A stretch of DNA of 45,930 bases from Bacteroidales bacterium (GTDB lineage Bacteria > Bacteroidota > Bacteroidia > Bacteroidales > WCHB1-69): contig JAEEQE010000022.1 of assembly GCA_016285145.1 (NCBI GenBank), positions 1 to 45,930 on the forward strand, given 5' to 3'. The number at the start of each line of letters is the position of its first letter. The stretch's first letter is position 1. The notes beneath the pieces are model-generated. The model saw only the letters and a program-made list of their open reading frames with translations, did not search any database and was not told where the DNA came from. Positions 3,266-37,215 of this stretch are shown here, one piece after another. The translations under genes were made by a program, and so were the position numbers.

Positions 3266-5827
3266 TTAACGGTCGTTAGATTCTACGTTTTCGGATTCGT
3301 TTAAAGACTGCTCCTCGGAAGGTTCGTTCAGGTCTGCGGGCTCGACATTCTCGTCTTCAAATTCGTCGTCATCCTGGCGCGGAACCACACAAACAGCCGC
3401 GATAAGATCGTTCTTTCGAAGGTCAATCAACTTGACGCCCTGCGTATTACGGCCCAGCACACGCAATGAATCCACATGCAAGCGGATGGCGATGCCGGAG
3501 CGGTTGATGATCATCAGGTCGTCATCGTCCGTCACATCTTTCATAGCGATCAGTTTACCGGTTTTTTCAGTGATTTTGATTGTGCTGACGCCTTTTCCGC
3601 CACGATGGGTGATGCGGTAATCCTCCAGCAGCGAACGTTTTCCGAAGCCGTGCTGCGAGACGATAAGCACCGTGCTCCGCGGGTTGTCGATAGCAAGTAC
3701 GCCCACGATGCGGTCGTTCTCATCTGCAAGGGTCACACCCTTCACGCCGGCGGCGGTACGGCCCATGGCACGCATCTCCTCCTTCTCTTTGAATCGGATA
3801 GCCCGTCCAGAATGGAGTGCCAGCATCATCTCGCTGTTGCCATCGGTGAAACGGGCCGCAATCAAGCGGTCACCCTCACGCACATTGATGGCAATGATAC
3901 CTTTCTTACGCGGATGGGAATAGGCATCAATGGAGGTCTTTTTAATAATACCTTTTTCTGTACAAAGGAATACAAAGTGATTATTGATGTAGTCCGGATC
4001 GGTGATGGATTTCAGATTAATGATAGAGGCAATTTTGTCATCCTCTTCAATCTGGAGGATATTCTGAACGGCACGGCCCTTCGATGTCTTCACGCCTTCC
4101 GGGATCTCAAACACACGCAACCAGAAGCACTTGCCTTTTTCCGTGAAGAAGAGCAGATAGTTGTGATTGGTGGCCATGTAAAGGTGCTCGATGAAATCCT
4201 CGTCGCGGGAGCTGCCACCCTTAGAGCCTTTGCCGCCACGATTCTGCACACGGTACTCGGCCAACGGGGTGCGCTTGATATAGCCCAAATGGGAAATCGT
4301 GATAACGACCTCCTCATCCGCGATGGTGTCTTCTATACGGAATTCGGAAGCATCCATCTCGATAGGTGAACGGCGTTCATCGCCATAGCGGTTTTTAATG
4401 TCCTGCAGTTCGCTTTTGATGATTTCCATACGGAGGTGTTCATCGGAGAGCACATTCTGAAGGTATTCGATTAATTTCAGCAGGTCGGCATATTCGTTCT
4501 GCAGTTTCTCGCGTTCCAGTCCGGTGAGCTGGCGGAGGCGCATCTCCACGATGGCGCGTGCCTGGGCTTCGGAGAAGTTCCAACGTTCCATGAGGCCGTT
4601 CTGGGCTTCCTGAACGGTTTGTGAGGCGCGAATCAGTGCGATGATGTCATCCAGGATGTCCAGAGCCTTGAGCAGGCCTTCCAAAATATGCGCGCGGGCC
4701 TGTGCTTTCTTCAGATCGAACTGGGCGCGGCGGATCACCACCTGATGGCGGTGTTTCACATATTCCACAATCATATCCTTGAGGTTCAGTGTCATCGGGC
4801 GGCCATTCACCAGGGCCACATTGTTCACACTGAACGACGACTGCAGGGCCGTCATCTGATACAGTTTGTTAAGGACCACCTCAGGCACAACATCCTTACG
4901 CAAATCATAGACGATGCGGGTGCCATTGCGCTTGTTGGTCAGGTTCTCAATGTTGGTGATGCCCACGATTTTATCCTCTTTCACCAGTTCCACCGTATGC
5001 TTGATCATATCGGAAGGATTGACCAGATAAGGCAACGATGTGACTACAATCTGGTTTTTGTTCTTATCCGTTTCAATGGTGGCGTGGCCACGCATCACGA
5101 TGCGTCCGCGACCCGTCTGGAAAGCCTCCTGCACCCCTCTGTACCCGTAAATCTCGCAACCAGAAGGGAAATCCGGTGCTTTGATATACTGTGAAAGTTC
5201 CTCAATAGAAATCTCATTATTGTCGATATAAGCGCAGATACCGTCACACACCTCACCCAGATTGTGGGGAGCCATGTTGGTGGCCATACCCACGGCAATG
5301 CCGGAGGCGCCGTTCACAAGCAAGTTGGGGATTTTGGAGGGCAAAACGGTCGGTTCGGGGATGGAGTCGTCGAAGTTGAGGGTCATGTCCACAGTATCCT
5401 TCTCGATGTCGGCCACCATATCCTCGGCGGATTTGCGGAGGCGGGCCTCTGTGTAACGCATGGCGGCGGGGCTGTCACCGTCCACGGAGCCGAAGTTACC
5501 CTGTCCATCCACGAAAGGATAGCGCAGAGACCATGGCTGGGCCATACGGACCATGGCGTCATAGACGGCCGTATCGCCGTGCGGGTGGTACTTACCCAGC
5601 ACTTCGCCCACGATTCTCGCGGATTTCTTATATGGTTGGGAAGATATGATGTTGTTGTCCCACATGGCATAAATGATACGCCGCTGGACCGGTTTCAGAC
5701 CATCGCGGACATCCGGTAGTGCACGCGACACAATCACCGACATGGAATAGTCAATATAGGCAGTCTTCATCTGATTTTCGATGTTGACCTGGACAATTTT
5801 CTCTCCTAAAGCTTCTTCTTCTATCAT
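3266..5827 (-). CDS. gyrA: DNA gyrase subunit A
   Basis: An 853-residue GyrA, normal length for the family. With GyrB it makes the tetramer that introduces negative supercoils. The N-terminal breakage-reunion domain is intact: the catalytic tyrosine is Y125 in [10 protein letters not shown], next to R124. The quinolone-resistance region reads [10 protein letters not shown] at 81-90, so the position equivalent to E. coli Ser83 is Thr86 and the Asp87 equivalent is D90. The C-terminal beta-pinwheel contains a GyrA-box-like QNRGGKG at about 528-534, close to the canonical QRRGGKG, which supports gyrase rather than topoisomerase IV. The last 35 residues are an acidic tail. The gene heads the operon with the two TPR genes and diverges from clpC across a 218-base gap. 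A TATTTTCG sequence at 5895-5902 (minus strand) is a one-mismatch match to the Bacteroidota -7 box. Confidence 0.97.
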
Positions 5828-5901
5828 CTTATCGTTTTTTTGTTTAGTCTAAAAAACTATGTTTCAATTAGTTGCAATAAATCAAAATAAAGCACGAAAA
5901 T

Positions 5902-5916
5902 ACGAAATTTTTTCGT
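5902..5916. promoter_or_regulatory. Short perfect palindrome in the gyrA-clpC divergent region
   Basis: A 6-bp inverted repeat (ACGAAA, 3-base spacer, TTTCGT) lies between the two divergent genes and 17 bases upstream of the sigma-54-like element of clpC. It could be an operator or a weak hairpin. The sequence is AT-rich, so chance is possible. Confidence 0.3.
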
Positions 5917-5932
5917 TTCCACGTCATTATTT

Positions 5933-5948
5933 TGGCACTTTTTTTGCA
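5933..5948 (+). promoter_or_regulatory. Sigma-54-type -24/-12 promoter candidate upstream of clpC
   Basis: TGGCAC at 5933-5938, five bases, then TTGCA at 5944-5948. The GG and GC dinucleotides are separated by exactly 10 bases, as required for RpoN promoters (consensus TGGCAC-N5-TTGCW). Transcription would start near 5958, leaving a leader of about 88 bases before clpC. No activator gene or rpoN is in the window. Confidence 0.6.
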
Positions 5949-6020
5949 CATGCAGCAGTCTAAAGCAGAAGCGGGCAAGTCATTGCTCAACGATGTTCCT
6001 GTCCGTTAGAAATTAAATTG

Positions 6021-6028
6021 TATTTTTG
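6021..6028 (+). promoter_or_regulatory. Bacteroidota-type -7 box upstream of clpC
   Basis: TATTTTTG matches the TAnnTTTG -7 consensus of the Bacteroidota housekeeping sigma factor. It lies 17 bases before the clpC ATG, which would give a very short leader. No clear -33 TTG is seen at the usual distance. Confidence 0.5.
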
Positions 6029-6045
6029 CCGCAAATTTTTCACAG

Positions 6046-8592
6046 ATGGAAATCAAGTATTCAGACGAGATGCGCTATGCCTTGGAAGAGGCACGGAACA
6101 TAGCCGTATATTACCATTCCCCCAACATCGGCACCGAGCATGTCATGGTGGCGATTCTGCGATTCCCCGGGGAGAGCATGACCAAAACCTTGTTCAACAT
6201 TTACCGCGTGGACATGGACGTGCTTCGCACCAAGATCGAGGAATTGATTGAGAATAACGAACACAAGACCGAGACCACGCCCGAGACCATCCGGATGAAC
6301 ATCCAGACGGACAACACCTTGCGATTATCCTATCTTATCTCCAAAGAGTACAGGAGCGAGACGGTGGAGGCGTATCATTTCATTTTGGCCATTCTTCGTG
6401 ACGGGCGCAACGATTCCGCCAACGTGGTGAAGATGTTCCTGACACGCGCCGGACTTTCCTACACATCCTTTGCCTCGGAGGTGAAGAAGGAGTTGAACAT
6501 GGAGTCGGGCCGTACGGAGGCGATTCTGGATCAAGGCGACGATATGGAGGAAGAGGACGATCGTCGGACGACCACTCGTGCCAGCAAGCCGGGCGGGAAA
6601 GGCTCCGCCACCCCCATGTTGGACAGTTTCGGCAAGGACCTGACCAAATTCGCCGCCGAGGGCAAGCTGGACCCCGTGGTGGGACGGCAGAAGGAGCTGG
6701 AGCGTATCGCCCAGATTCTCAGCCGGCGGAAAAAGAACAACCCCGTGCTCATCGGCGAACCCGGCGTGGGCAAGTCTGCCGTGGCGGAAGGTCTTGCCAT
6801 GAACATCGTGAAAGGGAAGGTGTCGCGCACGCTCATGAACAAGCGCGTCATCAGCCTGGACATGGCCTCCATTGTGGCCGGCACCAAGTACCGCGGCCAA
6901 TTTGAGGAGCGTGTCAAGACCATCCTGACGGAGATCGAAAAGAACCCCGACATCATCCTGTTCATTGACGAACTGCACACGATGGTCGGGGCGGGGAACG
7001 CGCCTGGCAGCATGGATGCTTCCAACCTGTTCAAACCCGCGCTCGCCCGTGGCGAGATGCAGTGCATCGGCGCCACCACACTGGACGAGTATCGCGAATT
7101 TATCGAGAAGGACGGTGCCTTGGAACGCCGTTTCCAGAAGATCATCCTCGAACCCACCACACCGGAAGAGACCATCGAAATCCTCCACAACATCAAAGAC
7201 AAATACGAAGATCATCATATCGTGCGCTACAGCGACGAAGCCGTGAAAGCCTGCGTCACCCTTTCGAACCGCTACATCACGGACCGCTGTCTGCCCGACA
7301 AGGCCATCGACGCCTTGGACGAAGCCGGAGCGCGGATGCACATCCAGAACATACACGTTCCACCGGAAATCCTGCAGGCAGAAAAGGAAATTGCCGAATT
7401 CGAGCAGTTGAAATCACAGGCCATCAAAGAGCAGCAGTATAACGCCGCCGCTGGCTATCGCGACCAGATCAAGCAGATAGAGACCAACCTTTCCAACCTG
7501 AAAAAAGAGTGGGAAAAACAGTCTGACTTGGAACGCCCCACCGTCACGGAGGACACCGTGGCGGAGGTCATCGCCATGATGACGGGCGTGCCCACCCAGC
7601 GCATCGCCAAAAACGAGGGAGAACGCCTCATGAAGATGGCAGACGAGCTCCAAGGCAAGGTCATCGGCCAGGACGACGCCATCATCAAAATCTCGAAATC
7701 CATCCGACGCAACCGCGCAGGCCTGAAAGACCCTAACCGGCCCATCGGCTCGTTCATTTTCCTGGGCCCAACGGGTGTTGGCAAGACCTATTTGGCCAAG
7801 ATTTTAGCGGAATACCTCTTTGACTCGCAGGACGCCATCATCCGCATCGACATGAGCGAGTATATGGAGAAGCATACCGTGTCGCGGCTCATCGGAGCGC
7901 CTCCGGGCTACGTGGGCTACGAAGAGGGCGGCCAACTGACCGAAAAGGTGCGCCGGAAGCCCTACTCCATCGTGCTGTTGGACGAAATCGAGAAGGCGCA
8001 CCCCGATGTGTACAATGTTCTACTGCAAGTGTTAGACGAGGGCATGCTCACCGACGGAATGGGGCGTAAGGTGGATTTCAAGAACACCATCCTCATCATG
8101 ACCTCCAACATCGGCACGCGCGAGCTGAAGGATTTCGGCACGGGTGTGGGATTCAGCACGGAGGCCACCAAGGCCGCCCAGAACAAAGTGGAACAGGGCA
8201 TCTTGGAGAAGGCCCTGAAGACAACCTTTTCCCCGGAATTCCTCAACCGCGTGGACGACGTCATCTATTTCAACAGTCTCAACAAAGAGGACATCCTGAA
8301 AATCATCGATATCGAATTGCAGAAGGTTTTAAGTCGTGTGGTGGCTTTGGGCCTTGACATCCATGTGACTGACAAAGCCAAGCAGTACATTGCCGAGACA
8401 GGATGGGATCCCAACTACGGAGCCAGACCATTGCGCCGCGCCATCCAGAAGCATGTGGAAGACCTTTTGGCGGAAGAGATCCTGAACCAATCCCTACCAC
8501 AGGGCACGGTGGCGGACTTGGATTACGACGACCTGCTGGACCAGATGGTACTCCTCAACAAAAAAGCCATTGCCGAAGAAGTAACCGCATAA
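6046..8592 (+). CDS. clpC: ClpC-type AAA+ chaperone, ATP-binding subunit of Clp protease
   Basis: An 848-residue Hsp100 protein. An N-terminal Clp N domain (about 1-150, with EHVMVAILR) is followed by an acidic and basic linker (about 160-190). AAA+ domain 1 has Walker A GEPGVGKS at 237-244 and Walker B ILFIDEL ending near 310. A short middle domain of UvrB/C-like coiled coil is at about 430-490. AAA+ domain 2 has Walker A GPTGVGKT at 574-581 and VLLDEIEKAHPDV. The short middle domain argues for ClpC rather than ClpB. A VGFST segment near residue 700 sits where ClpP-binding chaperones carry the IGF/VGF loop, so this unfoldase probably docks on ClpP, which is not in the window. A KdsC-like gene starts 11 bases after the stop. 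Two promoter candidates precede the gene, one of them sigma-54-like. Confidence 0.95.
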   Translation: MEIKYSDEMRYALEEARNIAVYYHSPNIGTEHVMVAILRFPGESMTKTLFNIYRVDMDVLRTKIEELIENNEHKTETTPETIRMNIQTDNTLRLSYLISKEYRSETVEAYHFILAILRDGRNDSANVVKMFLTRAGLSYTSFASEVKKELNMESGRTEAILDQGDDMEEEDDRRTTTRASKPGGKGSATPMLDSFGKDLTKFAAEGKLDPVVGRQKELERIAQILSRRKKNNPVLIGEPGVGKSAVAEGLAMNIVKGKVSRTLMNKRVISLDMASIVAGTKYRGQFEERVKTILTEIEKNPDIILFIDELHTMVGAGNAPGSMDASNLFKPALARGEMQCIGATTLDEYREFIEKDGALERRFQKIILEPTTPEETIEILHNIKDKYEDHHIVRYSDEAVKACVTLSNRYITDRCLPDKAIDALDEAGARMHIQNIHVPPEILQAEKEIAEFEQLKSQAIKEQQYNAAAGYRDQIKQIETNLSNLKKEWEKQSDLERPTVTEDTVAEVIAMMTGVPTQRIAKNEGERLMKMADELQGKVIGQDDAIIKISKSIRRNRAGLKDPNRPIGSFIFLGPTGVGKTYLAKILAEYLFDSQDAIIRIDMSEYMEKHTVSRLIGAPPGYVGYEEGGQLTEKVRRKPYSIVLLDEIEKAHPDVYNVLLQVLDEGMLTDGMGRKVDFKNTILIMTSNIGTRELKDFGTGVGFSTEATKAAQNKVEQGILEKALKTTFSPEFLNRVDDVIYFNSLNKEDILKIIDIELQKVLSRVVALGLDIHVTDKAKQYIAETGWDPNYGARPLRRAIQKHVEDLLAEEILNQSLPQGTVADLDYDDLLDQMVLLNKKAIAEEVTA

Positions 8593-8603
8593 ACAACAAC
8601 ATC

Positions 8604-9122
8604 ATGGACCTCAACGCCAAATTCCAACCCATCACCACATTCATCTTCGATTTTGACGGGGTGCTCTCCGACGGCAAGATATACGTGCAACATGACGGCG
8701 AACAAGTGCGGGCAACCAGTGTGAAAGACGGCTACGCACTCCAGTACGCCCTGCGCAAAGGATACCGGATTGCCGTCATCTCCGGCGGCTACGCTGAATC
8801 CATGAAACTGCGTTACAAGGACTTCCCCGGCATGGAGATGTTTCTGAAAACCCATGACAAGGTGAAGATGTTTCACGAATACCTCAACCTCCACAAGCTA
8901 ACCCCGGAAGAGGTGCTGGTTATGGGGGACGACATTCCTGACTACAAAATGATGCAGCTGGCGGGCATGAAATGCTGTCCGTCGGACGCCGCCACGGAAA
9001 TCAAAGGGATTGCCGACTACGTCTCCCCGTATCCTGGTGGTGGCGGGGCCGCGCGCGATGTGATTGAGCGTGTGCTTCGCCTGCACGGGAAATGGTTTGA
9101 AGAAGACGCATGCCTTTGGTAA
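8604..9122 (+). CDS. KdsC-like HAD phosphatase (3-deoxy-manno-octulosonate-8-phosphate phosphatase family)
   Basis: A 172-residue HAD-superfamily (C0, KdsC/YrbI-like) phosphatase. The catalytic loop is FDFDGVLSDG, with the nucleophile and acid/base aspartates of the DxD pattern; motif II is VISGG and motif IV is GDDIPD. In the family, KdsC removes phosphate from KDO-8-phosphate for lipid A/LPS core synthesis and related enzymes act on other nonulosonate phosphates; which sugar is used here is not visible. The frame stays open upstream to 8403 inside clpC, but family length, the position of the first motif and the ATG at 8604 just after the clpC stop fix the start. The gene is probably co-transcribed with clpC. 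A gap with AT-rich repeats follows. Confidence 0.88.
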   Translation: MDLNAKFQPITTFIFDFDGVLSDGKIYVQHDGEQVRATSVKDGYALQYALRKGYRIAVISGGYAESMKLRYKDFPGMEMFLKTHDKVKMFHEYLNLHKLTPEEVLVMGDDIPDYKMMQLAGMKCCPSDAATEIKGIADYVSPYPGGGGAARDVIERVLRLHGKWFEEDACLW

Positions 9123-11879: not shown

Positions 11880-14800
11880 TTATTGTTTTACTACCTTCAC
11901 GAAACCGACAAAATGGCCATGACTGTACAGTCTGACGAAATACAATCCAGAGCCCAAACCTGACAGGTCAATTTGACGTTGACGGCTGCCCGTATTCCAG
12001 CGGCTCATGCGGACCAGTTCACCCATCGCATTGTAAAGCATCGCCTCTGTCAGTTCCTGCATCGGATTATCGGATTCAATGGTGACGACACCACCCGTAG
12101 GATTCGGATACGCCCGGATGGAATAGTCGTCGCCATACGAGTCTATTCCGACGGCCACCGTCAGGTGCAGCGTCACCACGGAGTCACAGCCGTGCATATT
12201 CTGCAACGTTTGCACATAGTCTCCCGACTGGCAATAGGATTCGCCGTGCCAGATGTAACAGCTGTCGGACACCGACACGGTTTCTTCCGTAACATCAAAA
12301 TCCCAAGCTTGAACGGTGACGGAAGCCGTATTGTGACACCCAGCAGCATCAAAGCCCATAACCTGATAGTCACCAGCCGAATAGACTGACAACGTCGCAT
12401 CTGTGTTTCCATTATTCCAAATGTAGGACACACCACCCTGAGCCACTAATGTGGTGCTGTCTCCCGGACAGATATCCGTACTGCCTGCAATGGTGATGTT
12501 CGGCAGCGGTGACACCAGAACCACCACGTCGGCAGTGCCCACACAACCCGCCGCAGATGTGCCTGTCACGCTGTACATGCCGAAAGCATTCACCTGCAAG
12601 GAAGCCGACTGGTCGCCCGTGTTCCAGATGTAATTGGCGGCACCTGTGGCCGTAAGCGTCGTGCTGCTTCCCGCACAGATTGTGGTGTTGCCTATTATGA
12701 CTATCTGCGGAGTCGTGTTCACCGTAACAACGACATTGGCTGCGGCGGAACAGCCTTCCGCACTGGTAGCAGTCACGGAATATGTCCCACTCTGACCAAC
12801 GGTAATGCTGTTTGTCGTGGCTGCATTGTTCCAGACATAACTGCTGCCACCTGTGGCCGTCAGCTGTGTGGTGAGACCTTCGCAGATGACCGTATTACCT
12901 GTGATGGTCACCGTCGGAATCGGATAGATGGTCAACTTCAGTGTGTCCACGCTGGCGCAGCCGTCGGCGTTGTTGTATGCGTGCGTGTAGGTGCCCGAGT
13001 TGGTGTAGGTGTGCCCGTGCCACGTGAAACTCTCGCAGGCGGTTTCCGTTTCCACATTGTGGGTTCCGTGGAGGATGGTCAAGTGCAGCGTCACCACGCT
13101 GTCACAGCCGTTGATGTTGGTGAAGTTCTGCGTATAGATACCACTTTGCGTGTAGGTAGTGTTATTCCATGTATAACTATCGCAGGCCGTCGCGCTAATA
13201 TTGACAACAGAGGCAGACAACACATTCACCGTATGGACGGCTGAAGTTGCATCGCAGCCGGAGATGCTGCTGGAAACTGCCACATAATAATCGTATGAGC
13301 CCACTGGCAAAAGGCTGGAAATGGTGTATGAAGATGATGTGGCACCGCTAATGGCAACCGCCTCGCTGCCATTCATCCTTCTGTACCATTGGTAGCTTAA
13401 CACATCCCCGCCCATCACACCTTGCACGGTAGCAGACATTGTGACAGTATCCCCCTCGCAAACATTGTCTGCCCCCGTGACAACAACCGTGTAAGTGGGG
13501 ACAATCGTAACCAATGTGCTGATGCTTACAGATGAACTGAAAGCCACACAACCGGCACCCGGTTGGGAGACTGTCATAAAATAGTAATCAATGGACCCAT
13601 CATTGGGGACCACAACACTCAAAACCGGACCTATTTCATTCATTAGTTCAACACCATTCTTGGACCAATGATAAATATTTGTACCGTATCCGCCAGTCAC
13701 GTCGGCCTTTATGACAGTGGATCCTCCCTCGCAAACCGTGTCTGGATAACCAGCCTCGCGAGTAATGGTCACCGTAGGTTCAGGCCAAACCATGATGGCA
13801 GGGGCAGCGACGGTTGCACTACAACCGGCATTCGTGGTAACTGACACCGCATAATGGTATGCGGTCACACGGGCCTCATTCATAACAACGTATGATGAAG
13901 ACACCACATCTGGAACCAGAGCACCATCCCTATACCACTGATAGATGCATGGTACTGTAGCCGGAGCGACATTGGCTGTCAGCGTGACCATGCCACCTTC
14001 ACAAACCAACGTGTCATCCACAGAAACCGTCACGACGGGCAGCGGATTAATGGTCAGGTGGAGCGTATCCACGCTGGCGCAGCCGTCGGCGTTGTTGTAT
14101 GCATGCGTGTAGGTGCCCGAGTTGGTGTAGGTGTGCCCGTGCCAGGTGAAGCTCTCGCAAGCGGTTTCCGTTTCCACATTGTGGGTTCCGTGGAGGATGG
14201 TCAACTGCAGCGTCACCACGCTGTCGCAGCCGTTGATGTTTGTAAAGTTCTGCGTATAGATACCACTTTGCGTGTAGGTAGTGTTATTCCATGTATAACT
14301 GTCGCAAGCCGTTTCTGTGATGCTGACAACAGATCTGGCCAAGACATTCACCGGATGGATGGCTGAGGTCGCATTGCAGCCAGGGATACTACTGGTGACA
14401 GCCACATAATAGTCGTAAGAGCCAACTGACAAGAGGTCAGAAATCGCGTAGGTGGAGGAGGTCGCACCGGCAATAACACTTGAAGAGCCCGAGGTGACCC
14501 TGTACCATTGATAGCCCAATGCGTCGTTAGGCAAGACGTTGTTCACCGTTACATTCAGCGTAACGGCACCGCCTTCACACACGTTGCCGCTACCGGAAAC
14601 GGTGGCCGAGTAGGCGGGAGCGACCATGACGGTCTCAACGTTGGAAAGCTGGGGTTGACAGTTGTAACCGGAGGCAACAACAGACACCTGATAAGCGTAT
14701 GTGCCGGGCGTGTTCATCGTAAAAGCATTTTGATCTTGGGCAAAATGAACGTTTGTATGAGAAGATAAAACGACACCATTGGAAGTCCAGTTGAATGTCA

Positions 14801-17800
14801 GGCCATCATAGATGGTAGCGTTCGTCACGCCATTGACCGTGTTGCTGTAGTTGGTGATTATACCGTTCAAAGTAGTGGTTCCGCCGGAACAAACGGTGGT
14901 GCCATCAGTGACATACAAGGACACAACAGGTTGCTCCGCCACTATGACGGTGACCGGACTCGACAGGGCGGACGTGCATCCGAAGGCGTCGCCTTGCGTG
15001 ACCCTCGCCTGGACCGTATGGTAACCTGCCGTATTCAACGTAAGGTTATACGTGTTCGTCACACCGGTCACTGGAGTTCCGCCGTCAAGAATCCACTCAT
15101 AGCTGAAGTTGTTAGGCAGTTGGTTGCTTGCATTGACTGCGGCTGACAGCATGGCCATACCTCCCGCACACATCGTCATATGATCGACTGAAAGCGTGAG
15201 CGTCGGGGCGGCGGCAACCGTCAGCGTCAACGTAATCACACTGTCGCAACCGTGGACAGTTCGCAGCGTATGGGTATAGGCACCCGCCGAAGTGAGCGTC
15301 TGCCCGAAGAAGTTGTAACTATCGCCTTGGCAAATGGATGCGGTTACAGGAATCTGGTATGTCGGATAGATGGTCAGGTGGAGCGTATCCACGCTGGCGC
15401 AGCCGTCGGCGTTGTTGTATGCATGCGTGTAGGTGCCCGAGTTGGTGTAGGTGTGCCCGTGCCACATGAAGCTCTCGCAGGCGGTCTCCGTGGTCACGTT
15501 GTGCGTGCCGTGGAGGATGGTCAAGTGCAGCGTGTCCGCGCTGGCGCAGCCATCATTGTTCGTGTAATGGTGCACGTAGGTGCCGCTCTGCGTGTAGGTC
15601 ACGCCCGTGCCGGCTGCCCACGTGTAGCTGTCGCACTCCGTCACCGTGGTCACGTTGTGCGTGCCGTGGAGGATGGTCAAATGTATTTTAAAAATAGTAT
15701 CCCTGCCGTTATCCCTGATCAAAACAGAATAGTTCCCTGCTTCTGTGTATGTTGATCCACGGAATTCATACTGTCCACCTGCACAGATAGTTTCATCAAT
15801 ATTCACTTCAGGAACAAACAGATATTCTCCAAAATGAATTTCCATATTTTGAAACAATAGCGTGTCAATGCATTGAAGCTGTTGTGCCGTAACGACTGTA
15901 GTGTCGGAATAGGTCGGGAACAACGTGGTCATACAGTAGTCGATTTCCTGCATGGAGCCCGCCGCAAAATCAAAGGGGCCCATGTTTGCCACACCTCTTC
16001 TGTCACCGCCAAGTAAGTTAGCCGTCTCTTCTCTCCATCCATCCGATCCGCCATAATCCTGATAATTGAATCCAGCGTATGCTACCGGATCGAGAACACC
16101 CCAATTGCACGGATCACTGGTGCCTGGGAACATGAAACGACATTCAGGTCCGGTGAGGCCATCCTGCGGATAACCATTTCCCCCATATACAAGACGGGTT
16201 CCATCTCTCCAACGATTACGCATCAAATTGTAATATTCTAAAGCCCTATTAGGATCTCCCACAACGGAACGGTCATTGTTATAAGAAATAAATCCCGTCA
16301 TTCCCATACGTTCATCATCCGTTATGCCATTTCCGAAATTCGTCCCCGTTATGGCGTATTGATTACTGCCACCGAGCACAAACAATCCGCAATCTGTCGT
16401 ATCGGTGAATGATGGATTATCCAATCCGTCTGCCGGAATGCGAGGGCCTCCCAATATGGTCAACGTCTGTATCGGCGGATTCGGGCCATAATGGGCCGGC
16501 GAACCACTTCCATCAACAGTAGAGGCATTGTATGCGTATGCCGTGTTATTTTGCACATCACACCCCACACGGTCATCGTCCGCATAGCCCAAATCCCAGT
16601 CGGTCCACAGACTGGCGTATGCATCGTGAAGATCGGTTTGAGAGCGGTTGAACAATTTGTATTTGACAAATAGCGTGTTGTTTAACACCGAATCCTGCGG
16701 AGCGTAGTAGCCGTACACTATGGCATGGACCTCCACGCCGATGGGCATTCCACCCAATGGAGTGCGTTTGGTCGGTTTGTCGTTGAAAACGAAGAACAGG
16801 GCCATATCTCCCGGGAACGAGGGATAGTCGCCGTGTGACGGATCGTAATGGTTGTCGCCGTCCACATCCACAAAAGGTGCCATATTGTAAGCCTGGCCTT
16901 TTGCGGTATCGCCGTGCGCGGGCCATGATGCGATGTGGAACGGGATGGTATAGTCTGGCTCATCATAGCGGAGCAAGAAATCCAACACCTCTTCCCGCGT
17001 GATTTTGAAACAGCGGTTCCAGCGGGCGACAGTCGCACTATCTGTGGATGCATCGGTGATTGAAAGAGGTCCCGACCAGAAATCCTCACAGGCTCCCATA
17101 CCTGTATGATTAACGACATCTGCATAGATACTGTGATTTCCAGCAGAGAGATGCAAGGAATCGGTATCATCCATGCCACCCAACCAAAGGCTATGAGCAT
17201 AGATAGTGGAGGTCTGTGAGTCCTTGGGCACCCTATAGAAAGCATTGCTATTATGAAATTGCAACGCCCCAACCGAGAAATAGGCGGCAATGTTGTTCAC
17301 ATCTATCAGATTGTCAAGATGCACATACATTTGTTGTTCACTGTAGCCGGTACCATATTCGTTGATGGCGTAGGCCCGTACATAATAGACGGTATCTTTG
17401 GAAAGCCCCGTAAGGACACTTGTAAACTTGCCGTCATACGCGTATAAATTATTATACATGGTATAATCGTCACTGACACTGTGGCTGTCGGCCAATGTCG
17501 GGTTGGGTGTGGTACTCCAACAGATACCACAAGCTGTAATTTGAGAACCGCCCTCGTTGGAGACGCTAACCTCAGCGGTGGCAGATGTCGAATCCTTACC
17601 GAAAATATTGTCCAAAGCAAGAGCAGGGATAGAGCCATTCGTCCTGAAGATCTTTCGTTCACCATAGGTTGTCCCCACACTTCTGGTTGCGTACGCCCGC
17701 ACATAATAAACCTTACCCGGCAGCAAGCCCGTCAGCTCGCTGATAAACGCACCCGTACCGGCTCCATCAACCGTGTGTGCATCGGCAATCGTCGGATCAG

Positions 17801-20800
17801 GATTTGTGCTCCAACACACACCGCGGGCGATAACAGGCGAATTACCATCGTAGGTCACATCACCACCGCAGGTTGCTGTGTATTGTGTAATGTTGGCTAC
17901 CGTATCAGTATTCACTTTGGCAGGACTCACACCATCACCGAGAACGCAGCGAACAGAAAGGCCATAATAAGAATCGCTGTACCCCATGTAAACACCAGAA
18001 CGGTCAAAACTGATTTTTTGGCTATATGTGTAATTCGTGTACCCGTTATAATTGGAAGCCCAAAAAACAGCAGACTTTCCGAAATCAATATTATTCTCAA
18101 ACCTTGAATACTGCCCGTCATTCTCCCAATAAAACGTCCTTCCGGCAATGCCAATGGGAACAGCCGAAAAACCGGTTGAATTGTTGGGAACAACACTTTG
18201 GTCGCTTGGAGTACATTCGCTACTGTTGCTGCTTACACCGTAGGTATAACTATAGGCATCCCATCCTGTATTATCTGCCAATGCCTTTGCAATACTATTG
18301 GAATCATCATTGCATCTATAACATTCCTGACTGCCTACATAGTCCATCAATTGTCTCCATTCCGAGTCACTTGGAACATGCCAACCAGTAGGACAAACAC
18401 CTTGAACTCCACTTGGATTAGTCGCACTGGAAGGCATCCCATACATTAACGCAAACCAATTGTAACGATACCCATAGACAGGAAGGCTATTCATATTCTC
18501 CGCATAGTCCTGTGCCAAACCCGGCAGACAACGATACGGACCACCCATATTACCTCCAAGAGTATCTATCTCCACCCCATCGGCATAATGTGTGGTACGT
18601 AAGTTCTCTTTCATCCAGCACTGGTTGCCAATCTGCACCGTGTTATAGACATTCCCGTCGTAATCGGTGACGGTCTCGTGCCCCGGACAGGGTTGTGCAT
18701 CGTCAACAGGGAGTGTCATAAACATCACCTCATCACCATACACTGTGCGAAGATTGCTAACCGCATACGCCCGCAGATAGTATGTGGTGTTGGGCGTAAG
18801 ATTCGTGAGTGTGCTCATAAACGAACCAACGCTGTCGCTTGTGTGCGCATCCGCAACCGTCGGGTTCGGGCTCGTGTTCCAGCAGACGCCATGACTTACA
18901 AGGGAAACATTCCCTCCCATCGTGACATTGTATTCTGCTATGGCAGAAGAATCCACCACATGAGAAACCTCCGGTCTTGAAACTTGTAGATTCTCGGCAC
19001 TCATATCATTTAACGAACGAGGAACAATATAGTATCGGAAATCATAATTATTCGAACCAATCATGGATCTGGCGACATTGACACCTGTGACATTTTGCAC
19101 CACTCCGGTAGGGATGGGCATATTGATATAATCCACCTCATAAAGATACGGGAACAAAGCGGGAGACGACACATTGTTTTGCAACAAATCATAACGGTTC
19201 ATTCGAGTGAAATCACCCGTAGAAGTAATGGTCACATCATCCAGTTCAATCAACTCCGCCTGATGCGATTTCATAAACGCAGTGTCATCCAGTTGAGGAA
19301 GACTCACGACAAGCGGTGCGACCGACACGGAATGTGCCTCCAACTGTCCGTACGGGAGAACGGGGATAAACTCAAGGAATCCATGATAGTTGGTCAGCGT
19401 ACCGACAATGTCTTTGATCTGGTCGCCCACCTCCAAATCACCCAGAATATTGTTGGCGTCAAAAACCAATATAGCTCCTGTTGAATCCTGGATGAATTTC
19501 TGATTGTTAAATGAAGATTTTGCAGTCACCACAGCACTGCCCACCATCCTGTATTCAACATCACCCTGTTCTGTAATCATGTGATCAGAGAAATCCATCT
19601 TGCTTCTCAGCTGGGCTATATTCTCACAAGACTCTCTTTCCGTCGTAAAGACCACCTCATCACCATAACTTGTTCCAACACTGTTGGTGGCATACGCTCT
19701 CATATAGTACGTAGTATTGGGTGTAAGCCCCGTGACATTGCTCCATACTGCACCTATATCCGTGCCGTTATTTGTATGTGCATCGGCAATTGTCGGATCA
19801 GGATTTGTGCTCCAACACACACCGCGTGCCAACAGACTTGGGCATCCGGCATCCACCACATTACCAAGGCACATAACGCCATTTGACGAGATGTTTGTAA
19901 CGCCATCCGTGGTCACAACAGGAAGCACACAGGGTGTAGTAAAAGTTACAGGCAACGACCAAAACGAATATGAACTATCACTACAGACCGTACGCACATA
20001 TACATAGTAATTCTTACCAGACATCAACCCACTCAACGAGAATGTGGTGTTCTGCGTAACCAAAGGAGCAAGTTGGCTGGGAGACACAGATTGGTCACTC
20101 GTAAACACATACTCCCATTTGTTGTCAGAATTATGGACTGGCGTGAACGTTATGTCTGCTGTATTGTCATTAATAATATCCGCCATCAGATTGTCAGGTC
20201 TTCCACAGTCACTAACTGTAATACGAATGGAATCCACAGCTGCAGGCGGCATAGTTCCACCAAATGCGTCGTTGGTCCAACGGAAATAAAGCCGTTGCAC
20301 AGAATTGGCCAACGAGGAAGGCAACACTGCACTGTAGGTGGTCCAATCGGAATTTAAATTGAATTTGGGTTCTAACACGATAGTACCGGATGGATCATCC
20401 TGTGGAATGTTATATAACGTACTTGCAGGCATGGCCTCAACCTGCATCGGAGTTCCGACATAAACTTTTAAGAAATCGTACAAACTTTCGCCGTAGCATC
20501 TCCAATTGAAGCTAAGTTCAAATTCAGTTCCCGCACCGAACTGAATGTCACGATAAGCCCATACCGTCGTTTTTTCTCCTGAAACCGTATAGGCATTCGT
20601 CAATCCGGTGTCATTGGAGATATACAGCACTGAATCTGTCAAATCCACAGGCTGTCCAATATACCATTTGTTGGGGCTAGAACAGTTTATCAAGCTCCAC
20701 TCGGCATTCTCCGTCCCGTCGTCGAAATCATGGAAGTACGGCAACTGGGCGGGATTGGCTCTGGATGTCATGAATGTCACTGAAGACCAGTAATTATAAC

Positions 20801-23800
20801 CCAATCCATTGGCGCATACCGTGCGCACGTATGCCGTGTACTGCGAGTTGGGATTCAGGTTTGACTCACTGTAAATGTTGGAAGTCACAGTTTGCGCCTG
20901 CGTGTAGTCCGGTGTCTGGTTGGCCGGAACCAGCAGCACTTCCCAATTGGATTCTGAAGCCCCGTCCGTCCAGGTCAAATTCACCGTGGAAGAGGTTACC
21001 GAAGAGACATGGAGATTCGTTATGTCCGGACAACTGGGTGCCAACATTATCTTAACATTGTCCAAATAGGTGTAATTGTATATAAAGGAGCCTGTCGGCT
21101 TTGGTGCACGAATGGCTATACGGTTACCCGTACCTGTGTAGTTAAAGAAGTCCACATGATGCGTACTGATGGTCGTACTGGTAAACGTCACTGTGTCAAC
21201 CGGAACAAACTGGTTGTTGGCCTCCATCATACCGACCTCCACATAATCAACGTATGAAGCACTGGTCTGGTATTTCCGCGCATCAAAGTAGAGACGCAAG
21301 GTGTTTATCGGATGCGTTGTCACATCGATCTCCGGCAGAATGGCGATCTGGTCGGCGTATGGGGATGAAGTATAGGAATAGAAGTAGAGGCAGTGATTCG
21401 TTGCATACGTGGTGTTGTTATAGATGGTAGGGCATCCTGCTGCCGAAGACCCATTATTGATATAATCCCAGCAGTTGGGCAGGATATGGTTGGAAGAGTT
21501 GCCGTACGGATAGCTCTCGAAGTCCTCCATGAACGGAAGTACCGTGAGGGCGGCGCAGCCCGTGCGGAAGGTTCCGGCTTCCCAGCTGCTGTTCTCTCCG
21601 TTGCTGCAGTGTGCCTGCACAAAGACCTCATATAAAGTGTTGGGGCTCAAATTCGTCAAGGAAAAGAATGGGTTGGTATAAATGGTTTGCGGGGACAGCT
21701 GGCTGGGATCCGTGATGGAGCCGGCAGGACCGTACACCACATCCCATTCCGTCTCATCGCCGCCGGCGGTCCAAACCACATCCGCCGCATACGGCGTGAT
21801 GGTGGCAGGCAACGCATGGACATTCTCCACATGCAGACAGCTGGGGATATAATCAATGTTCACATCATCCAAATAGATGTAGTTCGAGATCCATTGCGGA
21901 CAGCGGAAGGCCACATACCGGCCCGTTCCATTGTAATTCTTTGTCATCACCTCGCCGTTTTCAAAAGCAGTGGTGGAAGTCGGGGCGAACGAGCCTAATG
22001 CCGTGAAGGTGTTGTAGTCGTCCGGGTCGGTCATGACACCCACCTCGATGAAATAAGGAGAATTGGTGGTCTTCATCGCCTTGAAGCGAATCAACAGGCT
22101 GTCCATCGCTACGGCATCGTCGAAGCGCGGGCTGGCGATGTAGGAGTAGGCGGCACTTGTAGCATAGAAATAGACCGAGTTGGGACTCGACTCATATTGG
22201 GTTGAACTCAGGTACGGATAGGCGGTGCTGTAGTTCGTGGCACGCGTCCAGCAGGGTACCATGGCTCCCGTGGCGGCAGTTGCTCCGTCAAAGTTCTGAA
22301 TGTAAGGCACCGTAATAGGACTACAGTCCGTTTCAGCCATTAATGTAACCCAATCGCTGTTCTCATTGCCGCAATCCGAACGCAAGCGGATATTGTAAAC
22401 CGTATTGGATGTCAAGCCGCTGAGGAGTTGGGGAGAGGAAGCACCCGGCACCGAGGTCCAGCTGGTGGCGTTGGCGGCCTTGTATTCGAATTCCCATGCA
22501 CTTTCCGTGAAGCCTGGAGCCCATGTCACCTCGATGCTCTCATGATCATGAGCGGAAACGTAGGCATTGGGGGCAACACAGGTTTGTAGTGCCGATTGCA
22601 AACAGGTGTGGAACTTGGTGTTCACACGATTTGCATAAAGCGTGCCTGACGGTGGAGAATTTGGATCCGGATTGCTGCTGTCACTAAAGTAACCAATAGA
22701 CATATCGGATCCCGGATTATGCAAATTGAAGGTATAGGAAGGACCATCATACTGATTCGAGTTGTCATCCACTATCACCACCAGATTATCCTGACCATTA
22801 TAGCTGAACAGCTGGTCAAAGGTAAAGGTGTTCCATCCTGACGTACAGTTCAAGTTGCCGCTATACACCAATTGCGCAGAAGTGATGGGAACCCAGGATG
22901 TGGAGGAAGCGAATGAATTGAGCGTCGTATGTGCCAGATAGATATCCACATTCGTCTTTTTGGTCGATGCGTCAGAATGATTATATTGGAACTCAATACC
23001 CGATATCAATGTCGGCGTGGTGGACACCTCATTAGGAGTATAGATCTGTTGCGAATAAGTATAGTTGTAATAATTATTACACGGAAGATAACAAGCCGTG
23101 GTATTAGTGCTGGAAGTAACCTCTGCTGTAGTGTTCGACTGCAGGCATTCCTGAATGCTTCTGGTAGTGAACGTGAGGGTCTGTGTCGCCGTTGTCTCCC
23201 CGTTGCAGTCGCCATAAATCCGAACCTGATATTGGGTGTTCGTGTCAAGACCTGACAACAAGTAGGAGGTTCCGGTAATAGGATTGGACGGTATCCAGTT
23301 GTTCTGCCCTTGCTCCGTGTATTCCACATAATAATCCGGGGTGCCGTATTCGGATTCGTTCCACGTCAACAGGGCTGATGTGCTGGAAACGTTGGATACG
23401 GTAAAATGAGTGGGTTCCGAACATGTCGGGGCCATATCCACACTCACCTCATCCAAATACATATAGGTCGAGGATGAAGAAAGCGGTGTTTTGAAAACAA
23501 TATATATCGGGGTAGAATAGGCCTGGGTGAGCGGAATGCTGAAACTGTGCCATGTGCTCAGGGTGGTGAAATCGCCGGGATAGTAGGACTTCAGTAAGCT
23601 GAATGTGGTCTCATCGTCCGGATCCGTCATCACACCCACATCCATGCGGGCATACGAAAGACCACTATACGGCATCAGTTTGAAACTGAGTTCCAAATCG
23701 CCGGCATTGTAGTTGGAGAGGTCCAGTGCCTGCGAAGCGGCATACATATAATAACCGGAGGGCATATAGAAATAGAGGGACGCCGCACCGGCGGAGTGGT

Positions 23801-26800
23801 AAGAGGAGCTCACATACGGACAAGTATTGGAGGTATATGTGGATTTTTTGGTCCAACAAATCGGGTAAGCGTTGTTGCCCGTACCCACACCTTCAAAACC
23901 TTCGGTGTAAGGGATCACACTGGTTGCCAAGCACTTGGTGTAGAACAACACGGCATCCGACCAGTCGCTTTCGTCTCCAGAGCCGCAGTCGGCCTTCACA
24001 TACACATCGTATGCTGTGGCATCCGTGAGACCCTGTACTGTATAAGGATGTGAGGTGACGTACTCAATCGTGCCGGAACTCGGCTGCTGTCCGTGAGGCA
24101 CCACCACCACCTGCCAGTCGGTCTCGCCGTTGCGGGCCGTCCAGTTGATGGTGGCACTGTTGCTCGTAGAAGAGACTGTCACATCAAGCGGACGGCGACA
24201 GGTAGGAATGACATTGAGACATATGTCATCCAAATATGCAGAACAATTGCCTGTGAAATTCGTTTTGAAGGCGATGAATGAACCGTTTCCCGTATAGCTG
24301 GATAGATTCACTTCAAAACTCTCATAAACGTTAGCGGCTGACACAGACAACGTATTCACCGGGGTGAAGGTGTTCATGTCTGCCGGGTCGGTCATCACAC
24401 CCACAATCATTTTTACCTTTGCCACATTGTTGGTCCGCATCTTGAAAGACAACTGCAGCGTATTGACCGGAATAGACGGATCTACCGGAGGAAGTGCGAT
24501 GGCCGAATAGTTGGCTGAGGCGCTGTAGAAATAAAGGGAATGCAATCCCGAAGCGGGTGTCGTAGTCACATACGGATAACTGCTGTTATAAGTGCTGTTA
24601 CGCGTCCAACAATAAACAGGATTGGAACTGCCTGTAGAAAAGGCTTCGAAACCTTCCGTATAGGGAAGGGTGGAAATGGACGCACATTCTGTGCGTACCA
24701 AGAGTCCTACAGACCAGACACTGTACTCCGTACCGCAGTTTGTCCGAACATATATGTAATATGATGAACCGGGATTCAAATTGGTGAATTGGTAAGCTGT
24801 GTCTTGAATAGTCACGGCGAGGGTTTCATCCAAGGTGTCACCGAAAGGCACAATCACGGCTTCCCAAGCATTGTCAGTGGCAACAGCCGGCGAAAAGTGG
24901 AAATCCACCGTGGTGGTCGTGACAGTGTCCGCAGCCAAATCATAGGGGAATCCGCACGCATGGCCTTCAATGAAGATATTATCCACAACAGGAGGAGGAG
25001 GCGTGCCCACCGAATGGTCATTATGCCACAAAAGATAAAGGCGCTGCACACCGGAGAACGAGGAGTTGATCCGGAATGAATAGCGTGTCATGCTGTCCAC
25101 CCCGTTCATTTTCGAGCCTAACTGCACCACACCGGCAAGAGTGTCATTTCCTGAAGGAACAGACGGTGTACCCACAAACACATTCATATAGTCACAACAG
25201 TTTTCACCAACACCTTTGAAATCAAAGGAAAGCACATATTCACCATAAATGTCGTCAAAATCAATGTCTCGATACGCCCAAACATTCGATCTAGATTTAA
25301 TATCATACGAATGTGTAACTCCGCTGTCACTGGAGATATAGAGCGCCGATTCTCCCGTGATGCCCGCTGCAGCACCGCCAATAAACCATTTGTTTGTCCC
25401 ATCAGAATTGTCGATAGTCCACTGTCTGTTTTCTGTCTCACTCTCCCAATCCTGCGTATAGGGCAGCGTGGCGGGAATCTGACTTGTACGGAAACTCACC
25501 TCCTCGCCGTAGGTCCTCACCTGCCCATTGTCCACGTAAGCCCGCAAATAATAGGCAGTATTCGGTTGGAGGCCTGTGATGTGGCTCACAAAGGCACCCG
25601 TGTCTGCACCATCAGTTGTGTATGCGTCATCGGTGGTTGGGTTGGGCGATGTGCTCCAACACACGCCACGAGCGGAAATCGGCAGGCCACGGTTCCACAC
25701 ATTTCCTCCCGTCACCGCCGTGGTGGCGGTGATTTCCGTAACGGGTGCCGTAGTCACACGTGGATGACGATTGTCCGGATCCTCGCAATAGGCCATACTA
25801 ACCGCAATATTGTCCACATACCATCCCGCGCAATTTTCTGTGCCGGAGGTCGGAGGTGACACTTTGTTCAACCGGAACTGCAGGCGCAGCCATCGCGGAG
25901 TTCCATTCTCATCTGAAAAGACAAGAGGATACAAGTCAATCCGTTCATGATGCCAGTTCGAATTGTCAGGCTGATACATCACCTGTTCAGGATGCCAATC
26001 CATGTATGTATTATCCGAAAATTTTCCATTGAGGATGGTTGTCACCGTATCATCCGAAGCATCACCGTAATAGATATCGCTACCATTATCAAAAATGATC
26101 CGCCTCCACACCCCCCATTCAATCACATCCTCTGAAGTCAGTCTATCAGCCACCTGGTAATAAATCCCCACCTCATCCCGAGGATCGACTTTGCATATAT
26201 GGTCGAAATCCAGATAGAGATGGCGTACAAGCGTTTCCGGGAAATCATTGAAAGGAATCGTATTCGTAGTGGCAAAACAATTCCCTGCATTGGAATACAT
26301 GGGGGAATGATACGAGAATTGGCCGGAAGCGGACAGAGGGATATTGTTCCAACCGTCATTATACGAAGTGTCGCCTACCAATCTCCAATTCTCCTGTTCG
26401 AACAAGATGTTTGAGATCATTTGGATGCTATCTCCGTCAAAATCCTCAAAGAAAAGCGTGTCTCTGTTGCACAAAGTGGTGAAACTCATCTCATCGCCGT
26501 AATTCGTGCCCGCGCTGTTCATCGCATACGCCCGCACGTAATACACCATGCCGGGGGTGAGGCCCGTCAGGCTGCTTGTGAACGGCCCCGTACCCGTGCC
26601 GTCCGTTGTGTGACTGCCGCTCACTGTCGGATTGGGGCTCGTGCTCCAGCATACGCCCCTGGCCGTCACGGACGCGCCGCCGTCGGAAATGACGTTGCCG
26701 CCGCAGGTGGCGGATGTATTTGACACGTCAGCGATTGTCGCCGTTGTAACAGCAGGTGCCGTAACACAGGTGTTTATCACCAAGTGCAACGTATCAGCAC

Positions 26801-28556: not shown

Positions 28557-28650
28557 AACCAAAATTATATAATTCAACGTTTTATTTATTATTCTTAAAA
28601 TCACGACCATCCATCATGGAATGCCCGCCATGGGACATGTAGTCAGCCAG

Positions 28651-34821: not shown

Positions 34822-37215
34822 TTAAAAGGCATAGCCAATGGCAATCTTCAATCCGTTGTTCCATTTGAAACGATGGGCACCCGAAAACCAATTTTTGTTT
34901 ATCCAGCGTCCCTTTGATGTGCGCTGCGGGTCATAAATGGGCAGTGCGTAGTCCACGCGCACCACCAGGAAATCGAAATCCAAGCGCAGGCCCACGCCCA
35001 CATCCGCCGCTAATTCCGTGTAGAAACGTTTGAAAGAGAACTCCGCGCCGGGCATATCATCGTTGGCCCGCGCCAACCAGATATTGCCCACATCGGTGAA
35101 AAGCCCATACTTGAAAGATCCGTAAATGGTACCACGATACTCCAGATTCCACTCCAGCTTGATGTCGCCCGTATAGATGCTATCACGACCACGTTCGTAC
35201 GAACCCGGCCCCAAACCGCGGTACCCCCACCCTCTCATGCTGTTGCTCGTGCCCATGAAAAAGCCCTTCTCGTACGGCAGATAGGACTCCTTGTCTAACG
35301 GGATGATGGCACCGGCATTGAACCTCGTGGCAAAAGAGTTGTTCTTGTTGAATGTGTGAGTGTAGTTCCAAGTAAACTCAAACTTCTCAAACACAGAATA
35401 GTCATAGCCAACCTCATCCAATTTGTTCTTGGCAATAACCCATCGCTTGTCCGGGCTGAAAAGCGCATTCAACCCTTTCAAGAACAGCCCTGACGACTCC
35501 GCATTGATGGAAATACGCATCACATCCTTCTTCCACGCGATGTTAAACGGCACCAGATAGTCCATACCATATTTCAACGAAAGCAAAAAGAACTTCCCGA
35601 ATCTGTTCTGATAGGATTTCGGATATTCCCAAAAATTGATGAAACCGGACAAAAGGCGGTTGTCAATATTGATGGTACTAATGTCAATAGGGCTGATGAT
35701 ATGGTTGGTATAATAGTTCGGACTCCAATTGTAGGTGACGTTTGTATTGAAAACCATACGTCTATACAAGCCCGAATAGTTGACACCGAAATTCAGGGTG
35801 GTGCTGTAACGGACGGCGTCGCGCTGCTGGGCACGGTGGAAAAGGAAGAGCTTGGGGAATGTCATTGACGCCAAGGCACCGAATTCCGGGTAGGTAAACT
35901 GCGAGCCCTTGCGGAAAAGATTGGTGAGCGAATAATAGAAATAGCCGCCTGACAGGTTTAACGTGAGATGTTCACCGCCTTTGAAGAGATTACGATTGGT
36001 ATAAGATAAGGAGATGGCGGACTTGTCATTGCGCAGATCCAGCTGGCCCCCGATACTGTGCACCTTCTGTCGCGTCAGACGGAATTGGGCATCCAGCACA
36101 CCCGTACGGTGCGTGGAATCCATCAGGACCGTCTTCTCCACAAAGGTCTGGTTCATAAAGGAGAAATTGTCTAACTGGTTCAATGACTGGCTGCTGCGTC
36201 GGCGGGCCTGCTGCGTATAAGGATTGCCTTTATGCATGTGGATGGCATCTGCAATCACCTTGTATTTAAAATCCTGTATCGGTGCCGTCAGCCAATCGTA
36301 ATGCGGCGTGATGAAATAGAAGCTCGTCGAATCTCGACGATTATGGTACAACACCGTGTCATACGCCTGCGAGGCATCCGCCGTGGCATCGTAGTCGGTT
36401 TGGACATACACGTCGTTGAAATAATACTTGTACAAATAACGGTCGGCATTCTCCACATTCGGGATCTTCATCACGATGTCCAACGACACCGACCTCGGGT
36501 CCGCGCTCGCCGTATCCAACGCCTCATCATACGACACCTCGCAGTGGATTACGGATTTCTCCACGTAATAATATCCCTCGTCTTTAATATCATTGATAAT
36601 ACGGGTCAACTCATTGGAGATCAACGCCTCGTTATATTGCATTCCCGAATAGAGCAGGGTCTCATCCAGATTCAGCACCACAATCTTGCGATACTCCGGA
36701 ATGTCAATATCATACCGTATGTTGCTGATGGTATAAGGTTCATTGGCTGTCACCAGATAACGGACAGAGGCTTTTTTCGGATTTGATTCCTTGAACCGGA
36801 CATTATAATCGAAAGTGGCATCGAAATAGCCGTATTTGTTCATCACCACGCCCAATTGGGATATTGAGCTCTGAATCTCCGTCGAATCAAGCAGCACGGG
36901 CGGCTCGCCGACGCGGTTGCGAAGCCATTGCCGGAATTTGGAATCCTTCCACTCACCGGTCTTGGGGTCCAGACGGGGTTGTCCGCCGGTATAGCACATC
37001 GTTTTCAGGTTAAACACCCCCATGAACCTTTTGTTTGTCAGGGGACGCACGTATGTTTTCAAATTGTCAATCTGAGGGTCTTTGGAATCCACGACCGTCA
37101 CTGTATTCTTCGTCAACATATATTGGCCCTCCGTCAAGGTCTTAGTGGACCGGCATCCGGGCAGAAGGGCTATCAAAAACGCACACGTCAGCCAATACAA
37201 TGACGTTGTCCTCAT
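34822..37215 (-). CDS. TamL-like BamA/TamA-family outer-membrane lipoprotein
   Basis: A 797-residue protein with a lipoprotein signal (lipobox LPGC, Cys21). Residues about 30-370 look like POTRA-type domains, and residues about 400-797 form an Omp85 16-stranded barrel that ends in an aromatic terminal strand (IAIGYAF). A region near residue 680 (SMRGWGYRGLGPG) fits the conserved Omp85 barrel motif R-G-[FWY]. The lipidated N-terminus and overall plan match TamL, the Bacteroidota relative of TamA, thought to work with TamB in outer-membrane assembly or lipid transport. No tamB is adjacent. It starts 2 bases after the mreD stop and so is tightly coupled to mreCD. Confidence 0.85.
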   Translation of the reverse strand: MRTTSLYWLTCAFLIALLPGCRSTKTLTEGQYMLTKNTVTVVDSKDPQIDNLKTYVRPLTNKRFMGVFNLKTMCYTGGQPRLDPKTGEWKDSKFRQWLRNRVGEPPVLLDSTEIQSSISQLGVVMNKYGYFDATFDYNVRFKESNPKKASVRYLVTANEPYTISNIRYDIDIPEYRKIVVLNLDETLLYSGMQYNEALISNELTRIINDIKDEGYYYVEKSVIHCEVSYDEALDTASADPRSVSLDIVMKIPNVENADRYLYKYYFNDVYVQTDYDATADASQAYDTVLYHNRRDSTSFYFITPHYDWLTAPIQDFKYKVIADAIHMHKGNPYTQQARRRSSQSLNQLDNFSFMNQTFVEKTVLMDSTHRTGVLDAQFRLTRQKVHSIGGQLDLRNDKSAISLSYTNRNLFKGGEHLTLNLSGGYFYYSLTNLFRKGSQFTYPEFGALASMTFPKLFLFHRAQQRDAVRYSTTLNFGVNYSGLYRRMVFNTNVTYNWSPNYYTNHIISPIDISTINIDNRLLSGFINFWEYPKSYQNRFGKFFLLSLKYGMDYLVPFNIAWKKDVMRISINAESSGLFLKGLNALFSPDKRWVIAKNKLDEVGYDYSVFEKFEFTWNYTHTFNKNNSFATRFNAGAIIPLDKESYLPYEKGFFMGTSNSMRGWGYRGLGPGSYERGRDSIYTGDIKLEWNLEYRGTIYGSFKYGLFTDVGNIWLARANDDMPGAEFSFKRFYTELAADVGVGLRLDFDFLVVRVDYALPIYDPQRTSKGRWINKNWFSGAHRFKWNNGLKIAIGYAF

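Follow-up and report, generated by a model that had tools for sequence, protein, structure and literature searches.

Protein quality control is already known to be under sigma-54 (RpoN) in Bacteroidota, from a map of transcription starts and from a regulon prediction, as presented in the available parts of both papers (PMC9723704; PMC12316311). In F. psychrophilum, mapped starts place sigma-54-type promoters before groESL, lon, dnaK, grpE-dnaJ, htpG and clpB, in a genome with three PF00158 proteins; the sigma-54 promoters that the paper prints as a selection do not include clpC (PMC9723704, accessible part). Across predicted Bacteroidota sigma-54 regulons, GroES/GroEL, DnaK, GrpE, HSP90 (COG0326) and COG0542 are enriched in Bacteroidota classes, and GrpE and GroES are called sigma-54-dependent in B. 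thetaiotaomicron; as far as its accessible text goes, this study consists of COG-level statistics and names neither clpC, fused sigma-54/sigma-A elements nor an upstream palindrome (PMC12316311). A separate chaperone regulator, RprY, binds the groES, dnaK and clpB promoter regions of P. gingivalis, and binding to htpG was not found, according to the portion available (PMC3646045). Among open-licence PMC papers, we found none that names a sigma-54 promoter of clpC in Bacteroidota. COG0542, one of the enriched groups, is presumably that of the Clp ATPases. In the text that could be retrieved, ClpC and a sigma-54 regulator appear merely as list items in PMC5524665, and PMC12596196 and PMC3162934 hold nothing on clpC under sigma-54.

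Here we describe the upstream region of clpC in a 45,930-nucleotide stretch of DNA from a Bacteroidales bacterium (the window). We consider it probable that the sequence TGGCACTTTTTTTGCA is a genuine sigma-54 promoter for clpC, working in tandem with a housekeeping promoter and joining clpC to the protein-quality-control regulon of Bacteroidota; we place it in that regulon because the same kind of element precedes groESL and htpG in this genome. The genome has in common with the SM4 (sigma-54) promoters of F. psychrophilum, as given in the available part of PMC9723704, both the -24/-12 elements and an operon of a sigma-54 regulator with lptE; relative to that species, the additions in this Bacteroidales genus, known from sequence alone, would be clpC and also secG-tig, secA and prfA. 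The induction of chaperones and proteases in Bacteroidota is only partly known, and these data suggest that clpC, possibly along with secG-tig and secA, joins the sigma-54 programme, for which the candidates are an activator whose gene lies shortly ahead of tig-clpP-clpX and a palindrome that may serve as a binding site. The less familiar parts of this picture are the fusion of the element with a sigma-A -7 box at clpC and secA in many congeners, and the palindrome, found before groES and more rarely before htpG.

The -24/-12 element in the clpC upstream gap

Table 1. Features of the clpC locus, in window positions.
Feature	Position	Strand	Remark
gyrA/parC-like topoisomerase subunit, divergent from clpC	3266..5827	-	name from translation
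Intergenic gap, 218 bases	5828..6045	.	separates the divergent gyrA/parC-like gene and clpC
Sigma-54 -24/-12 promoter element TGGCACTTTTTTTGCA	5933..5948	+	predicted start ~5958-5959
TATTTTTG, Bacteroidota sigma-A -7 box (consensus TANNTTTG)	6021..6028	+	predicted start ~6033
clpC, 848 aa, AAA+ unfoldase with UVR motif and ClpB_D2-small domain	6046..8592	+	

The element fits the pattern TGGCAC-N5-TTGCA, with GG at 5934-5935 and GC at 5946-5947, a spacing of 10 bases. It was originally predicted, from the letters of the window, to be a perfect -24/-12 sequence that is unlikely to match by chance; the letters, the coordinates, the GG/GC spacing and the length of the gap all proved exact, and the rarity of the pattern bears out the second claim. 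The exact pattern occurs once in the window (0.02 expected, both strands), and dinucleotide-preserving shuffles of the gap produced it on the plus strand in 1 of 40,000 cases, a relaxed pattern appearing on either strand in 64 of 40,000. Once mismatches are allowed, counts lie near background, with 22 matches in the window for 18 expected (at most two mismatches) and 71 in the genome as compared to 46 with the reversed pattern (at most one mismatch), and the weight of this evidence thus rests on the near-perfect form only.

Four exact copies are present in the 2.73 Mb genome: three lie upstream of clpC, groES and htpG, and the fourth lies at the apparent coding end of a gene, ahead of a LemA-like gene (named from its translation). 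Contexts were examined for 70 of the 71 matches with at most one mismatch, that at window position 35307 being left out. A codon-usage filter, weak in that it was calibrated at a score of 0.15 (exceeded by 68% of known-ORF points) and cut at 0.05, marked 16 of the 70 as possibly noncoding, the four exact copies among them. Another of the 16, TGGCACGACTTTTGCC, ends 90 bases ahead of a prfA-like start (named from its translation), and the remaining possibly noncoding near-matches look mostly like chance.

Close to the clpC start codon lies a second element, TATTTTTG, which resembles the -7 box of Bacteroidota sigma-A promoters; we placed this box at -12 to -5, following the accessible part of PMC9723704, to predict its start. 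It may differ from such promoters, no clear TTTG having been seen by eye upstream of it at the usual -33 distance. A further string, GTTCCTGTCC at window positions 5995-6004, lies between both promoters, near the expected -33 position, and is invariant in the four closest genomes.

We infer that RpoN-RNA polymerase would bind the -24/-12 element as a closed complex and would start transcription at the upstream of the two predicted sites only when an inducing signal brings either of the genome's two enhancer-binding ATPases into action. Such an activator-dependent start would supply additional ClpC on demand, and the TATTTTTG box, ~75 bases downstream, would provide basal sigma-A transcription. 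Control of clpC by CtsR, HrcA or HspR was considered as well and rejected, the gap holding no CIRCE, CtsR or HspR operator within 5, 4 and 4 mismatches, respectively, of the consensus strings.

Beyond clpC, a probably HAD-phosphatase-like frame at window positions 8604-9122 begins 11 bases past the clpC stop, and co-transcription of the two is possible. Further along, positions 11880-28610 of the minus strand are occupied by one ORF of 5576 aa.

Conservation before clpC, groES and htpG

Conservation of the motif before clpC in related genomes was named as a check in the original prediction, and in all three of the closest relatives (G028, G018 and G035, whose ClpC proteins are 98, 98 and 93% identical) the element is kept in place. 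In an alignment of the four genomes, the element coincides with an unbroken run of 21 invariant columns, as compared to 17 of 44 just downstream (Fisher p = 5e-7, for a 44-column comparison stretch picked after the alignment was seen). Another invariant block covers the TATTTTTG region, and conservation is also good on the side of the gap that faces the divergent gene. Since the -24/-12 element and the TATTTTTG box both fall within invariant blocks, this conservation fits the two promoters proposed at the outset for clpC.

For wider comparison, we scored upstream regions with a sigma-54 matrix written after the published consensus, taking p values from shuffles of each sequence. A search of 60 genomes gave 30 clpC loci for the genus, 29 of which, the window included, form the set used here (L146, whose N-terminus is missing, was omitted); as genomes of one genus, these are non-independent samples. 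Sites at p < 0.05 are present in 16 of the 29 on the forward strand and in 3 on the reverse. Seven of the loci have a separate upstream -24/-12 element, 16 have one fused with the -7 box and 6 have neither, and beyond the four closest genomes 19 of 25 congener loci carry the element in altered form or place. The fused form at clpC reads GG-N10-GTA-NN-TTTG and is degenerate in its -24 part in two of the 16 loci (L126 and L127). The sequence upstream of it varies widely among genomes, which argues against the element being carried along with one particular neighbour.

Among clpC loci of named organisms, 79 of 80 could be scored (L089 was too short), and record titles divided them into 61 Bacteroidota, with the untitled L064 counted among these, and 18 others. 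In the named Bacteroidota, forward sites were found in 27/61 at p < 0.05 and 13/61 at p < 0.01, versus 1/61 and 0/61 on the reverse strand, and no significant site in 34/61. The other groups gave 1/18 forward at p < 0.05, none at p < 0.01, and 1/18 reverse at p < 0.05. Control genes from the same loci (n = 139) had 15 forward and 10 reverse sites at p < 0.05, and 3 forward and 6 reverse at p < 0.01, one of these three being htpG; clpC differs from the controls with Fisher p = 3e-7 at the p < 0.05 cut and 2e-5 at the p < 0.01 cut. With such control counts, we rejected the notion that the site is a general property of upstream regions in Bacteroidota.

The chaperone genes carry the element more regularly. 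Before groES it is present at p < 0.01 in all 24 scored loci of the genus (25 retrieved; reverse 3/24 at p < 0.05), and before htpG at p <= 0.010 in all 27 scored (28 retrieved, from 26 genomes; reverse 3/27 at p < 0.05). In named Bacteroidota, groES has a site at p < 0.05 in 16/23 loci forward and 4/23 reverse, 23 of the 30 loci from 50 genomes searched having been scored and the others lacking a recognised start. At the level of the order, the same cut gives 14 of 16 rows forward and 2 of 16 reverse for groES (28 loci entered, no start being found in 12; one scored row does not correspond to a GroES start), and 7/19 forward and 2/19 reverse for clpC, some of these sites being unconvincing by eye (24 genomes, 20 fetched, 19 scored). 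For secG-tig in the genus, the counts at p < 0.05 are 13/29 forward and 7/29 reverse, so that the control is not clean, and none of the sites belongs to the clade of the window.

RpoN, candidate activators and an upstream palindrome

Our genome searches covered rpoN, activators, clpC, groES, htpG, tig and secA. The rpoN gene that the original prediction calls for is present as a single gene (C37), and Pfam recognises its activator-interacting, core-binding and DNA-binding domains. The presence of rpoN was tried as a discriminator and is of no use, 56 of the 60 genomes searched having the gene. In the sister genome G018 the clpC site is kept, yet rpoN was not found in the assembly (87% completeness); in G038, rpoN was not found either and the clpC site is absent, yet its groES site is strong, which suggests that rpoN is probably missing from that assembly.

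Two proteins of the genome combine, by Pfam, a full-length Sigma54_activat domain with HTH_8. One (C13, 441 aa) has a response-regulator domain; in the other (C40, 448 aa), Pfam finds no sensor domain. The C40 gene is followed, all in the same direction, by lptE, a 204-aa ORF with no Pfam match, secG, tig, clpP and clpX (L177:1352-7704).

A palindrome, TGACA-N3-TGTCA, is a candidate for the activator's site. We first spotted it by eye when inspecting genus sequences upstream of groES and htpG, and those two sets are thus not independent evidence for it, whereas the named groES set is. With at least 9 of its 10 bases matched and no more than 300 bases from the start, it precedes groES in 19 of 24 congeners where 0.3 are expected (L237-L261; the genome's own groES is L253) and in 15 of 23 named Bacteroidota where 0.2 are expected (L262-L291); in 2 of these 15 the best -24 box does not follow it. 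At htpG, 6 of 27 loci have it, one of them downstream of the box. Of the spacers from 2 to 5 that were compared, 3 stands out, and 2, 4 and 5 are near background. Order-level groES reaches 9/10 within 200 bases in 5 of 16 rows, a count made without a shuffle control.

That clpC goes without this palindrome is the main unexplained point. No copy was found before clpC in the 29 loci of the genus, nor before secG in 29 loci, and named clpC loci of all phyla have it in 5 of 79 (0.5 expected). In the clpC gap itself the best match is 6/10. The clpC promoter may use a weaker site, the other activator or activation that needs no such site.

Alternative readings and the fused form

One alternative is that the T-rich gap has yielded, by chance, a functionless string that looks like a sigma-54 site, with clpC transcribed from TATTTTTG alone. 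We consider this decidedly unlikely: a single shuffle in 40,000 reproduced the pattern, the block is invariant in four genomes, and two of the three other exact copies sit before groES and htpG, even though the window holds about as many near-matches as background predicts, the genome shows just a modest excess of them, and six of the 29 congener clpC loci have no site at all. The conserved block could also be the operator of another regulator that resembles a -24/-12 element, be it a repressor or RprY, whose reported targets in P. gingivalis, listed above, include groES; moreover, several groES elements of named Bacteroidota are near-palindromic, for example TGGCACAGTTTGTGCC. RprY did not bind htpG in the part of that study available (PMC3646045), yet htpG has the element in every congener locus scored. 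Together with a GG-N10-G spacing that stays constant as the inner bases vary, and with a gap in which the CIRCE, CtsR and HspR consensus strings found no match at the stated limits, this makes an operator very unlikely in our view.

The least likely of these alternatives is a true sigma-54 binding site that is not an active clpC promoter and instead forms a roadblock or regulates the divergent gyrA/parC-like gene. The site points to clpC, the strand bias in named Bacteroidota (27 forward and 1 reverse of 61) speaks for that direction, and it persists in congeners whose clpC upstream sequence is quite different; what such a role has in its favour is that the divergent gene shares the gap and that the groES palindrome is missing before clpC. 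On the comparative evidence, a sigma-54 promoter for clpC is the reading we prefer.

Of the two architectures of the element at clpC, separate upstream as in the window or fused (TTGGCAYAATTTTTGTANNTTTGC), the fused one may represent a dual-sigma promoter class in which one start is shared by the basal and the activator-dependent polymerase, and TGACA-N3-TGTCA may be where the activator of the wider regulon binds; we offer this tentatively, as a possibility more doubtful than the promoter itself. With the sigma-A box set at -12 to -5, as in the accessible text of PMC9723704, the fused form would have both polymerases begin at the same base.

The fused form extends to other genes. At secA, it was found in 23 of the 27 congener loci whose start could be located (L292-L319), as an element of 24 bases, TTGGCA-N3-ATTTTTGTANNTTTGC or a near form, and it is lacking in four related genomes (G001, G005, G011 and G024); in the window's own genome, our search did not find secA. 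An exact search for TTGGCAYNNTTTTTGYA in 40 genomes of the genus returned 41 matches versus 2 for the reversed pattern, and the genes downstream of the 30 matches with a locus include clpC, secA, secG-tig, htpG and prfA (names from translations). When most clpC and secA rows are excluded, 87 distinct TANNTTTGC boxes are counted close to ORFs in the genus, and 3 of them have GG at -24; two of these are clpC loci missed by the filter and the third is prfA. The prfA-like gene (L392, L164) has a near-consensus sigma-54 site in the window's own genome and the fused form in the congener G022.
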